Shown in pieces: positions 3,532 through 7,255 of a stretch of DNA of 33,442 bases. The notes below the pieces were generated by a model. The model worked only from the letters and a program-made list of their open reading frames with translations. It ran no database searches and was not told where the DNA came from. The stretch is from Saprospiraceae bacterium. Its GTDB lineage: Bacteria; Bacteroidota; Bacteroidia; Chitinophagales; Saprospiraceae. Within the stretch, counting starts at the first letter, position 1; every line of letters starts with the position of its first letter. A program made the translations under genes and the position numbers. Where the stretch lies: contig JAEUUU010000060.1 of assembly GCA_016787345.1 (NCBI GenBank), positions 1 through 33,442 of the forward strand, given 5' to 3'.

Positions 3532-6500
3532 ATGGAATACAACCCGCGCGACATCGAACAAAAATGGCGCATCTGGTGGCAGGAGAACCAGGTGTACAAA
3601 GTGTTGAACGACAGCAGCAAGCCCAAATTTTACCTGCTCAATATGTTCCCCTACCCTTCCGGCGCCGGCCTGCACGTGGGGCACCCGCTGGGCTACATCG
3701 CGTCGGACATTCTCGCCCGTTACAAACGCCTGCGCGGCTACAACGTGCTCAACCCCATGGGCTACGACTCCTTTGGTCTGCCCGCCGAGCAATACGCCAT
3801 CCAGACCGGCCAGCACCCGGCCGTCACCACCGACCAGAATATCGCCACCTTCCGCCGGCAACTCGACAACATCGGGTTCTCCTTCGACTGGAGCCGCGAA
3901 GTGCGCACCAGCGATCCGTCGTTTTACAAATGGACGCAATGGATTTTCATGCGCCTGTTTGAACATTATTACGACAAAACAGCCGACAAAGCCCTGCCCA
4001 TCAAGCAGTTGGTGCAGCATTTCGAACAAAAGGGCAATGCGGGCATCCAGGCTGCCTGCGACGAGGACACGCCCTCGTTCAGCGCCGCCGACTGGAAAGC
4101 CCTGTCGGAAAAGGAACAACAGGAACTGCTATTGAAATACCGCCTGACCTTCCCCGAAGAATCGTTTGTCAACTGGTGCCCCGGCCTGGGCACGGTATTG
4201 TCCAACGACGAAGTGAAAGACGGCGTTAGCGAACGCGGCGGATTCCCCGTGGAGCGCAAACGGATGAAACAATGGGCCATGCGCATCACGGCCTACGCCG
4301 ACCGCCTGCTGGCCGGCCTCGATACCGTCGACTGGCCCGAATCGATTAAGGAACAACAGCGCAACTGGATCGGCCGCTCGCAGGGCGCTTCGGTGCGTTT
4401 TGCCGTCGACGGCCACCCCGGCGCGGAAATCGAGGTGTTTACCACGCGCCTCGATACGATTTTCGGCGCCACTTTTATGGTGTTGGCGCCCGAGCACGAC
4501 CTAGTCGCCCAACTGACCACCGATGCGCAGCGCGCCGAAGTGGAAGGTTATGTGCGCTGGGCAGCCTCCCGCTCCGACATCGAGCGCATGGCCGAAACCA
4601 AAAAAGTGACGGGCGCTTTCACCGGCGCCTATGCCGTCAACCCCTTCAACGACCAAAAAATCCCGGTTTACATCGCCGACTACGTGCTGGCCGGCTATGG
4701 CACCGGCGCCGTGATGGCTGTGCCCAGCGGCGACCAGCGCGACTGGAATTTTGCCCAACACTTCAAACTGCCCATCATACCCATCCTCGATGCGCAGCAA
4801 AACCTCGACGAAGCCGCCGACCCCACCAAGGAGGGCCGTTACGTCAATTCCGGCTTTATCAACGGGCTGAGCTATCAGGAGGCCATGCCGCGCCTGATCG
4901 AATGGCTGGAAGAAAAAGGCCTGGGACAAGCCAAAGTGCAATACAAAATGCGCAACGCCGTGTTCAGCCGCCAGCGCTACTGGGGCGAACCCGTGCCGGT
5001 GTACTGGAAAGACGGCGTGCCTTGCCTTATCGAGGAAAACGAACTGCCGCTGTTGCTGCCCCAGGTCGATAAATACCTGCCCACCGAAACCGGCGAGCCG
5101 CCACTGGGCCGCGCCGAAGGCTGGAAATACCGGGGGCAGTACGAATACGAACTGAGCACCATGCCCGGCTGGGCGGGTTCATCCTGGTATTTCTACCGCT
5201 ACATGGACCCTCAAAACGAGCAGGCTTTTGCCAGCCCGGAAGCCATCCGCTACTGGCAGCAAGTCGATTTTTACATCGGCGGCTCCGAACACGCTACCGG
5301 ACACCTGTTGTACAGCCGCTTCTGGAACCATTTCATGCACGACCTCGGACTGGTGCCGGAGCGCGAATACGCCCGCAAACTGGTCAACCAGGGGATGATC
5401 CAGGGGCGTTCGAGTTTTGTGTTCCGCGCCCGGGAGCATTTTTATGAAGAATACGTCTGGATCAAGGTCCTGCAGCCGTTTTTTACCGAATTCGGCCCTA
5501 TTCAGGTGCCGGTTTCCAAGGCTGAGGAAGAATACAAATACGATTTTGCCTTCGAAAGCAACGATTTGGTGATCGAGGTCGTGTCGTACAAACAAACCGA
5601 CAAGATCGAGCGCATCCGCAGCGCCGCCGCTTCCGATGGCAAACGCCTGCTGGTGTTGTTCAACGAAGAACTGGCCGATACCATCAACGAGCCCGAAACC
5701 ACGGCCGAAAAAATCCGCCGTGCACTCAACAGCCGGGAGACGTTTTTCATGAGCAATGCACAACCCAAAGCGGAGCGATTGTTCGTATCGCACAACCTGA
5801 CCTCGAAATACAGCCCGGAATCGCTGACCAAACTGCACGTTGACATCAGTCTGGTCGACAACGATGTGCTCGACGTGGCGCGGGCAGCCCAATTGAACCA
5901 GTTTGCCGGCGCGACGTTCAAACTCGACGCCGACGGGAAGTTTATCTGCAGTTCGGAGGTCGAAAAAATGTCGAAATCCAAGTTCAACGTCGTCAATCCC
6001 GACGACATGGTGGAGCAATACGGCGCCGACTGCTATCGCATGTACGAGATGTTCCTGGGCCCCATCGAGGTCGCCAAACCCTGGGACACCAAGGGCATCA
6101 CGGGCGTGTCGGGCTTTTTGCGCAAATTTTGGGGACTGTTTTTTGATGAAAAAAGCGGCGCATTCAACGTCGCCGACGACGAGCCCACCCGCGACGAACT
6201 GCGCGCCCTGCACACGGCCATCAAAAAGGTGAGCGACGACATCGAGCGTTTTTCAATGAACACCTGCGTGAGCCATTTCATGATCGCCACCAACGAACTG
6301 CGCAGCCTGAAATGCAACAAACGCGCCGTACTGGAACCCTTGGTCGTGCTGATTGCGCCCTTCGCCCCGCACGTAGCCGAAGAACTCTGGCACCGACTGG
6401 GCCACAGCGATTCGGTATGCGCCGCCCAATGGCCCGCACTCAACGAGGCGCATCTGGTCACCGATACCGTGGTGTACCCGGTCCAGATCAACGGCAAACT

Positions 6501-6651
6501 GCGCGGCAACGTGGAAGTGCCCGCCGGCACCCCCGCTCCCGAAGTGGAACAAATGGTGCTGGCCCAGGAATTTGTACAACGCAATCTGGGCGGCGGAGCA
6601 GTGAAGAAGATTATTGTGGTGCCGGGGCGGATTGTGAATATTGTGGCGTGA
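3532..6651 (+). CDS. leuS: Leucyl-tRNA synthetase with an extra internal domain
   Basis: A cytoplasmic class I synthetase that charges tRNA-Leu. The HIGH motif is HVGH (residues 48-51). The editing (CP1) domain has TTRLDTIFGATF and GTGAVMAVPSGDQRD. The KMSKS loop is at 812-816, followed by the anticodon-binding domain. The segment around residues 140-200 is also of the Bacteroidota LeuRS type. At 1039 residues it is about 100 longer than the roughly 920-950 I expect for the phylum. The excess lies between SSFVFR (627-632) and LFVSHN (750-755), just before the KMSKS region, where relatives have only a few residues; it is described as a separate feature. The start MEYNPRDIEQKW is the normal N-terminus. 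The frame is unbroken, so the insertion is translated. All catalytic motifs look intact. Confidence 0.97.
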   Translation: MEYNPRDIEQKWRIWWQENQVYKVLNDSSKPKFYLLNMFPYPSGAGLHVGHPLGYIASDILARYKRLRGYNVLNPMGYDSFGLPAEQYAIQTGQHPAVTTDQNIATFRRQLDNIGFSFDWSREVRTSDPSFYKWTQWIFMRLFEHYYDKTADKALPIKQLVQHFEQKGNAGIQAACDEDTPSFSAADWKALSEKEQQELLLKYRLTFPEESFVNWCPGLGTVLSNDEVKDGVSERGGFPVERKRMKQWAMRITAYADRLLAGLDTVDWPESIKEQQRNWIGRSQGASVRFAVDGHPGAEIEVFTTRLDTIFGATFMVLAPEHDLVAQLTTDAQRAEVEGYVRWAASRSDIERMAETKKVTGAFTGAYAVNPFNDQKIPVYIADYVLAGYGTGAVMAVPSGDQRDWNFAQHFKLPIIPILDAQQNLDEAADPTKEGRYVNSGFINGLSYQEAMPRLIEWLEEKGLGQAKVQYKMRNAVFSRQRYWGEPVPVYWKDGVPCLIEENELPLLLPQVDKYLPTETGEPPLGRAEGWKYRGQYEYELSTMPGWAGSSWYFYRYMDPQNEQAFASPEAIRYWQQVDFYIGGSEHATGHLLYSRFWNHFMHDLGLVPEREYARKLVNQGMIQGRSSFVFRAREHFYEEYVWIKVLQPFFTEFGPIQVPVSKAEEEYKYDFAFESNDLVIEVVSYKQTDKIERIRSAAASDGKRLLVLFNEELADTINEPETTAEKIRRALNSRETFFMSNAQPKAERLFVSHNLTSKYSPESLTKLHVDISLVDNDVLDVARAAQLNQFAGATFKLDADGKFICSSEVEKMSKSKFNVVNPDDMVEQYGADCYRMYEMFLGPIEVAKPWDTKGITGVSGFLRKFWGLFFDEKSGAFNVADDEPTRDELRALHTAIKKVSDDIERFSMNTCVSHFMIATNELRSLKCNKRAVLEPLVVLIAPFAPHVAEELWHRLGHSDSVCAAQWPALNEAHLVTDTVVYPVQINGKLRGNVEVPAGTPAPEVEQMVLAQEFVQRNLGGGAVKKIIVVPGRIVNIVA
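5431..5778 (+). other. In-frame insertion domain in LeuRS, DUF559/Vsr-like nuclease fold (degenerate)
   Basis: This stretch encodes LeuRS residues about 634-749 and is absent from the family as I know it. Seen directly: YKYDFAF (668-674), DLVIEVVSYK (678-687), ERIRSAAASDGKRLL (693-707), VLFNEEL (708-714) and AEKIRRAL (725-732). This order matches the C-terminal half of DUF559/Vsr-like PD-(D/E)xK nucleases (xxDF...LVIEIDG..H...RIR...G..VLRF.NEE...KI..L). The first Asp (D671) and the Glu (E682) are in place. The acidic residue normally two after the Glu is Val684, and the usual Gly/His positions are Ser/Lys-Gln, so catalysis is doubtful. No intein splice residues (Cys/Ser at the start, His-Asn at the end) are visible. 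The boundaries are approximate. Confidence 0.65.
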
Positions 6652-6697: not shown

Positions 6698-7255
6698 ATG
6701 CGCCTCCTTCTCCCTATTCTCGCCCTCCTTCTTTTCACCGCCTGCAAAGACAAAAAGTACTGCGACTGCTGTGAAAATGAGGGGCTGTCGGCCCGTTTCC
6801 CCCTGAATATCGGCCCCGATCACCCCGACAGCCTGTTTACGGAGGCACTGCTCTACGTACCCAATATCATGGTGTACGACGGCGACGGCATCAACAATTT
6901 CTTTTTGGTCTTTTCCAATGCCGGCGTGGTAGAGATTATCTCGCTGGAAGTAGAGGACAAAAAAGGGAATCGGCTGTTTTCCCGCTACAATGTGATGCCG
7001 GCCGATATTGGCGCAGCCTGGACGGGCGTCACCTCGGGCGGCACCCGTTTCGAGGGTTCGTTCAACTACACCCTGGTCGTGCGGCTGTACGACGGCCAGG
7101 TCAAAACCCTCGATGGTTCGGCCTGCGCTTTTCCCTGCGGCGATGCAGGCTTCCCGACCAAACAACTGGATAATTGTCGGTTTACCAACCAGAACAACGG
7201 CAACGGGGAATACGACCCGACGCAGCCGGGGGCTTTGCCGGGGTGTTTTGAATGA
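6698..7255 (+). CDS. Small lipoprotein with a CHU_C-like (T9SS type B-like) domain
   Basis: The ATG at 6698 starts MRLLLPILALLLFTACKDK, a lipoprotein signal with probable lipidated Cys16; an upstream in-frame start would spoil it. After a Cys-rich stretch (YCDCCENEG), residues about 50-150 follow the pattern of the gliding-motility-associated C-terminal domain: VPNIMVYDGDGINNFF, EVEDKKGNRLFSRY, AAWTGVTSGG, then FNYTLVVRLYDGQ. In its usual place (PNxxTPNGDGxND...WDG) that domain ends large T9SS cargo proteins. Here it is almost the whole protein, and it is followed by a short Cys-rich tail (CAFPCGDAG). It sits 46 bases after leuS and 18 bases before the amidohydrolase-like gene, so it probably belongs to one transcript. 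Function is unknown; the domain similarity is moderate. Confidence 0.75.
   Translation: MRLLLPILALLLFTACKDKKYCDCCENEGLSARFPLNIGPDHPDSLFTEALLYVPNIMVYDGDGINNFFLVFSNAGVVEIISLEVEDKKGNRLFSRYNVMPADIGAAWTGVTSGGTRFEGSFNYTLVVRLYDGQVKTLDGSACAFPCGDAGFPTKQLDNCRFTNQNNGNGEYDPTQPGALPGCFE

Follow-up and report, generated by a model that had tools for sequence, protein, structure and literature searches.

The window, i.e. the whole stretch of 33,442 nucleotides analysed here from a Saprospiraceae bacterium, contained leuS as one uninterrupted frame of 1039 amino acids on the forward strand. The encoded protein scored 917 bits against the bacterial leucyl-tRNA synthetase (LeuRS) profile TIGR00396 (cut-off 548.4 bits), had both HVGH and KMSKS, and was the sole full LeuRS match in the genome. 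The features of the gene are listed below, with the nature of the leucine-specific domain (LSD) given partly as general background.

3532..6651, + strand: leuS, leucine--tRNA ligase (TIGR00396, 1039 aa)
3673..3684, + strand: HIGH-type motif HVGH, residues 48-51, conserved
4360..4911, + strand: CP1 editing domain PF13603, residues 277-460 (Pfam)
5401..5955, + strand: LSD region, about residues 624-808, host of the insert (assigned by its place before KMSKS)
5428..5778, + strand: inserted domain of predicted DUF559/Vsr-like PD-(D/E)xK fold, residues 633-749
5446..5448, + strand: presumed active-site acid 1, insert E7 = residue 639
5542..5544, + strand: presumed active-site acid 2, insert D39 = residue 671
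5575..5577, + strand: presumed active-site acid 3, insert E50 = residue 682
5581..5583, + strand: place of the ExK lysine, V in the window
5965..5979, + strand: KMSKS, residues 812-816, intact

The insert consisted of 117 residues placed in frame at the LSD hairpin. Compared with short-type LeuRS of Bacteroidota, in which only a few residues separate GRSNFVYR from FVS, it began directly past FVFR of GRSSFVFR and stopped ahead of LFVS. The closest solved LeuRS aligned to window residue 627 and resumed at 811; with KMSKS at 812-816, the insert therefore lies within the LSD. In an earlier note on this DNA, the extra segment had been placed at 5431-5778, just before KMSKS. The end was kept and the start was moved to 5428; the segment is indeed upstream of KMSKS, but 62 residues away from it. 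The LSD is described, in the available part of the source, as shifting between editing and aminoacylation-like states, supporting the KMSKS loop, and guiding tRNA into the site (PMC5059758).

The length from NQG to KMSK was determined in 106 LeuRS (L043-L148): it was at most 100 aa in 53, between 100 and 190 aa in 42, and at least 190 aa in 11, all of which were insert carriers. The 42 sequences of intermediate length had other sequences there and gave no domain match to the insert profiles at E < 0.05. The claim that Bacteroidota relatives have only a short loop is thus too strong. Other Bacteroidota (L079-L089, L091, L093, L098, L106, L108, L140, L144, and L145) had long LSD loops that the insert profiles did not match. 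The same LSD loop of a Cytophagales LeuRS (L113, positions 6969-7112) contained an in-frame palindrome-like insert with 19-bp arms and two mismatches. KMSKS was replaced by KMSKR in several Saprospiraceae LeuRS, both carriers (L015, L042, and L077) and non-carriers (such as L043 and L045).

The window insert was modelled with AF2 from a 40-row alignment (pLDDT 87.1, pTM 0.83). The model had the element order H-E-E-E-H-E-H-H, and the predicted structure contained the alpha-beta-beta-beta-alpha-beta core of the PD-(D/E)xK superfamily (Vsr/DUF559 branch). In the full-length LeuRS model (54 rows, pLDDT 83.6, pTM 0.73), the domain was predicted between strands 624-633 and 749-752. When the insert model was compared to the PDB with Foldseek, no match was obtained below E 0.001; the top one was the homing endonuclease I-Bth0305I (E 5.6e-3, prob 1.00, TM 0.54/0.62), followed by Hjc resolvase chains and by the endonuclease-like 3hrl (prob 0.84), which we take to be a DUF559 protein. 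Vsr was found at rank 21 (prob 0.38), and chains of the T. gondii mitoribosome (9i05), presumably RAP proteins, were low in the list (prob 0.14-0.25).

The motif letters given in the earlier note (YxxDF, LVIEV, RIR, G-R-LL, FNEE, and KI--L) were all present in the insert. Pfam gave no DUF559 (PF04480) match for it, only PF18742, a restriction-enzyme family, at E 0.003 and below the cut-off; the same family was obtained for L028 of the window class. Against the DUF559 cut-off of 20.6 bits, five relatives were scanned: L042 was above it (27.4), L041 below it (17.2), and L044, L077, and L028 had no match. PADLOC gave nothing for the window insert, and matches to PHROGs and to PDB sequences were at chance level only. 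In profile searches against PDB sequences, the 40-row insert profile ranked the mobile-intron protein 3r3p third (0.09), below unrelated kinase domains (E 0.05), and the profile from other genera matched the endonuclease-like 3hrl at 0.002.

Profile-profile comparison with hhalign supported a chain from the window genus through five other genera of the family, whose inserts read DFA...IE[IL]K, to standalone DUF559. The window-genus profile was aligned with that of the five genera at prob 97.5 and E 7.5e-12, and the latter with twelve DUF559 domains of the family at prob 98.7 and E 3.6e-16. With two inserts from another family, f127, added, the values were prob 97.9 and E 4.1e-13 for the first step and prob 99.3 and E 5.3e-20 for the second. 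The window-genus profile compared to DUF559 directly was not significant (prob 11). The other-genera profile also matched 10/10 window-class LeuRS (3e-10 to 6e-7, small set). The two f127 inserts are taken as intermediates between the LSD inserts and DUF559, because the DUF559 profile found them at 4e-12 and 9e-10 (small set) and they occupy the same LSD place. A DUF559/Vsr-like character, as proposed earlier, is thus backed by the fold and by linked profiles, and not by a Pfam match or a significant direct profile comparison; the insert does relate to PD-(D/E)xK folds in the AF2 model, in Foldseek, and in the profiles.

An ordinary elaboration of the LSD with no nuclease kinship, resembling the fold by chance, would agree with the lack of Foldseek matches below E 0.001, with the unrelated long LSD loops of other Bacteroidota, and with the missing direct DUF559 match of the window insert. 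The profile chain, the Pfam match of L042, and the DUF559-matching f127 inserts at the same place stand against it; it is very improbable, and ordinary LSD variation was rejected on the profile chain and the fold. A remnant of an intein or intron has in its favor that an in-frame insert akin to homing endonucleases is found in an essential gene, but the frame is open throughout the insert, and no Hint or intein family was among the Pfam matches of the whole 1039-aa protein at E 10. The earlier observation of no intein splice chemistry therefore holds, and a remnant of this kind is as good as dismissed.

The insert was present in 39/42 genomes of the genus, i.e. all those with the region assembled (30 loci and nine more), and is therefore not a chance occurrence; the in-frame extra segment in a single LeuRS frame, as first noted, is real. 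Among the remaining three genomes, the region was missing from G314, and no LeuRS was matched in G307 or G312; G321, counted as a carrier, ends inside the insert. When the window insert was used as the query at E 0.01, 10/298 genomes of the order were matched, nine of them from the same genus (the window's own included). The other match (G141, E 0.007) was rejected as a carrier, being an 827-aa ORF, methylase-like by eye, and no LeuRS. A three-row profile of diverged inserts (E 0.01) matched 58/298 family genomes, among which nine were LeuRS carriers from five further genera; in the carrier G838, a run of N breaks LeuRS at a later point. The remaining matches were weak, none being better than 1.8e-7, and many were in short ORFs. 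At E 0.01, this first three-row profile of relatives missed the insert of the window itself.

In 295 genomes of the class, the 40-insert profile matched the window, two f127 LeuRS (G1051 and G1167), and one DUF559 in another ORF (G1042). A phylum scan with the insert of one relative matched 0/395 genomes; the window's own insert was missed as well, and the scan thus shows little. The order and class scans did not reveal the segment as an insertion general to Bacteroidota, and its absence from the other Bacteroidota sampled is only suggestive. Close sources among mobile elements were also searched for and rejected. For phages, 71 viral-contig stretches fitted a pattern and none was confirmed, and in tblastn the best 20 of 43 phage records, many annotated as homing endonuclease, had a top E of 3e-3 and at most 42% query cover. 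For plasmids, a single record was obtained at E 0.1.

In a quick tree of the LeuRS body with the insert removed (74 rows), carriers did not form a single clade. In segment trees (55 rows), the C-terminal parts of 18/18 window-class rows were in one clade (support 98), and the other-genera carriers adjoined 21/23 Saprospiraceae rows having no insert. In the editing-segment tree, L181 (G316) and L182 (G304) grouped with the other-genera carriers, and their C-terminal part grouped with the window genus; this discord indicates that LeuRS recombined upstream of the insert. Both a single old gain followed by losses and swaps and two separate gains fit the trees. One gain is favored, because the insertion place is shared and the sequences are homologous.

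Conservation was assessed in 49 distinct inserts, 40 of the window class (39 and L077, which is from a named MAG and identical to none of the 39) and nine of other genera, the two classes being about 20% identical to one another. Seven columns were invariant: A1, E3, E7, D39, I49, E50, and A99. Judged by the alignment and known motifs, E7, D39, and E50 are presumably the acids aligning with the DUF559 core, and they were retained in 51/51 inserts when the two f127 inserts were included. With columns treated as equal, the probability of finding three named columns among seven of 117 by chance was 1.3e-4; for the window class by itself, which had 24 invariant columns, it was 0.008. The ExK lysine place was occupied by V (10) or T (30) in 40/40 window-class inserts, by K in 9/9 inserts of the five other genera, and by K in one f127 insert and R in the other. 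The catalytic set of D and ExK (or ExD) was consequently found in all nine inserts of the other genera and in none of the window class. The basic residue at E+5 varied in the window class (K 37, R 2, and E 1).

As the ExK lysine is lost in the window genus, full nuclease activity there is doubtful, though the site has not been erased. The earlier view of the domain as probably inactive agrees with the lost lysine and is made less sure by the three invariant acids. In a still active nuclease, these acids would bind metal and another residue would replace the lysine, so that tRNA or DNA would be cut, e.g. in quality control or defence. Some PD-(D/E)xK enzymes do lack the lysine, and the invariance of the three acids across such diverged classes, together with D..ExK retained in the five other genera, would fit such an enzyme. 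It is nevertheless unlikely, given the V or T at the lysine place, the varying E+5 position, and Pfam results for ten ORFs of the window, among which no nuclease or defence partner was found.

The mean identity over 29 rows was 0.60 in the insert, 0.58 in the following LSD part, 0.77 in residues 1-623, and 0.68 in residues 809-1039, i.e. the insert evolves about as fast as the LSD part next to it and faster than the rest of LeuRS. The dN/dS of the insert was 0.05-0.13 in the four closest pairs (L011/L012, for which it rests on very few changes, L027/L030, L022/L026, and L025/L032), and its median was 0.24 over the 11/465 pairs having dS of 0.05-1.2. The flank dN/dS values are unreliable where flanks contain indels. 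A neutral passenger, i.e. a segment that was inserted in frame long ago at a tolerant hairpin and persists only because it folds on its own and does LeuRS no harm, would agree with the similar rate of the adjoining LSD part, with the variable LSD loop length across Bacteroidota, and with the palindrome-like insert of the Cytophagales LeuRS. An invariant acid triad fits a dead passenger badly, and no loss was seen among the 39 assessable genomes of the genus; such a passenger is possible, if less than probable.

As the preferred function, the domain could be a nucleic-acid-binding lobe on the mobile LSD, the acceptor end of tRNALeu being nearest to it, with cleavage lost or changed; this is put forward tentatively. 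FASTKD4, a Vsr-like protein, is reported in the available part of the source to bind RNA without cleavage (PMC11879112). With the LSD acting at the tRNA end and FASTKD4 binding RNA uncut, we infer that a binding lobe is a little more probable than a tolerated passenger, and that an active nuclease is the least probable of the three.

Other genes also contained canonical DUF559 domains (ExDG..H) in frame. Within the genus, 28 PF04480 matches were obtained in 22/42 genomes, and none in the window's own genome: IleRS accounted for nine, long ORFs for seven (five helicase-like and one each of MutS and HemD), and ORFs 136-271 aa in length for eight; four were partial. The IleRS carriers were L194-L197, L214, L219, L221, L222, and L224 (G262, G309, G272, G318, G311, G329, G310, G301, and G322); no DUF559 was present in IleRS of G286, of G308, or, as far as assembled, of G000. 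Nine module-bearing ORFs were named by profiles as IleRS, MutS, MetH, MnmE (two), HsdR, HemD, and two AAA_11/AAA_12 helicases, of which the helicases, HemD, and the MnmE of L207 were named by Pfam only or below the NCBIfam cut-off. Helicases in L215, L223, and L226 and RecG in L268, L269, and L277 were read by eye. The in-frame domains in MutS, MnmE, MetH, and HemD were those of L213, L207, L208, L198, L254, L258, L275, and L234.

DUF559 matches were obtained in 101 of 247 genomes of the phylum, and among the 150 matches listed, at least 29 were in open frames of at least 500 aa. BLAST assigned these 29 to LeuRS (seven), MetH (three), and HsdR (four), and left 15 with no assignment (three RecG-like by eye). 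Among the seven LeuRS, all from other Bacteroidota, DUF559 was located near window residue 299, within the CP1 editing domain, in four (L250, L251, L264, and L267) and near window residue 535 in three (L259, L261, and L263). Taken with the LSD, LeuRS thus took up DUF559-type domains at three sites. In a weakly resolved domain tree (88 rows, 105 columns), modules of the genus from four IleRS, five helicases, MutS, and HemD were in one clade (support 97), and related modules are therefore spread over different genes within a single genus. The LSD inserts formed their own long clade apart from the modules.

In four IleRS genes (L194-L197), the domain was followed by an inverted repeat that is translated in frame; its arms measured 38-57 bp and had 0-2 mismatches. 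In L194 (G262), a second translated palindrome-like stretch, with no DUF559, was seen by eye downstream of the KMSKS of IleRS. Inverted similarity between both flanks was also tested across modules, and a module passed if at most 1/200 shuffles were as good: 28/43 modules, 1/85 control positions (1200 nt away), and 1/40 LeuRS-LSD inserts passed. Among the modules that failed were all three RecG-like ones, three out of seven in LeuRS, and those of the four IleRS genes in which a palindrome follows the domain. Inverted repeats within a flank alone were found in 9/14 modules of one set and 2/29 of another. From these patterns, we infer that DUF559 modules may be mobile. In a separate repeat check of the LeuRS-LSD site, no inverted repeats were found in 10/10 inserts, which leaves the LSD inserts outside the in-frame DUF559 modules bracketed by inverted repeats. 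As they have no repeats and a clade of their own, descent of the LSD inserts from bracketed modules is proposed by analogy.

The LSD insert shares with DUF559 (PF04480) the motif order, the helix glutamate, and the core D and E, and its relatives match DUF559 by profile. DUF559 has ExDG..H, whereas the LSD inserts, housed inside LeuRS, have ExV/ExT in the window class and ExK/ExR outside the genus. With I-Bth0305I and Vsr (EDxHD, very-short-patch-repair type), the likeness is in the fold, I-Bth0305I being the top match; the LSD insert differs in having no intron and no established nuclease activity, and no histidine of the EDxHD motif was recognised when the window insert was read by eye. Rickettsia palindromic elements are in-frame palindromes in genes, i.e. 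repeat DNA turned into protein in frame, as around the DUF559 modules here; to our knowledge they have no nuclease domain, and unlike them the LeuRS-LSD insert has no repeats. Inteins with a homing endonuclease likewise place a nuclease-type domain in an essential gene, but LeuRS has no splicing domain and the insert presumably stays in the mature protein. RAP-domain/FASTKD proteins, as far as the available part of the source describes them, have a Vsr-like fold with an altered active site and work on RNA (PMC11879112); those are eukaryotic organelle proteins and no aminoacyl-tRNA synthetases.

Taken together, the insert is probably a DUF559/Vsr-type PD-(D/E)xK domain that was gained in frame and then inherited, likely from the same stock as the in-frame modules. 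According to the proposed course of events, a domain of this nuclease fold would have been inserted in frame into the LSD hairpin of LeuRS in a member of Bacteroidota. This would predate the diversification of the window genus, and the domain would since have been inherited as part of the essential enzyme. Its stock would most likely be shared with the modules of IleRS, MutS, MnmE, MetH, and the two other LeuRS sites, a common origin suggested by analogy. Any flanking repeats would have been lost at the LSD site, and the lobe may now bind nucleic acid or be a passenger, the ExK lysine having been lost in the window genus. There is fairly good support for the origin of the LeuRS domain from such an insertion, of which it would be an old, fixed relic devoid of repeats, and the capture of a selfish nuclease, raised in the earlier note, gains support from the in-frame DUF559 domains of other genes.

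No paper linking DUF559 to tRNA synthetases, to palindromic insertion, or to insertion in frame was found, nor one on a nuclease domain within a tRNA synthetase, in the literature within reach, most subscription journals lying outside it. The in-frame modules may represent an element of a new kind. In a broader reading, which is speculative and rather doubtful, Bacteroidota would host an undescribed mobile element made of DUF559 and readable inverted repeats that lands in frame in essential or core genes such as those of IleRS, LeuRS (two sites), MutS, MnmE, MetH, and HemD and leaves them unbroken, the LSD domain of the window being an ancient repeat-less insertion that is now a tRNA-acting lobe. 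A predicted nuclease fold is present in the moving, tRNA-guiding part of LeuRS, genus-wide as far as genomes could be judged, with a complete-looking D..ExK in relatives. If the broader reading is true, readable inverted repeats would let selfish nucleases spare the host gene with no need of splicing, and old enzymes would be able to acquire new domains through in-frame nuclease entry. The pattern suggests a little-known way for nucleases to join core proteins.
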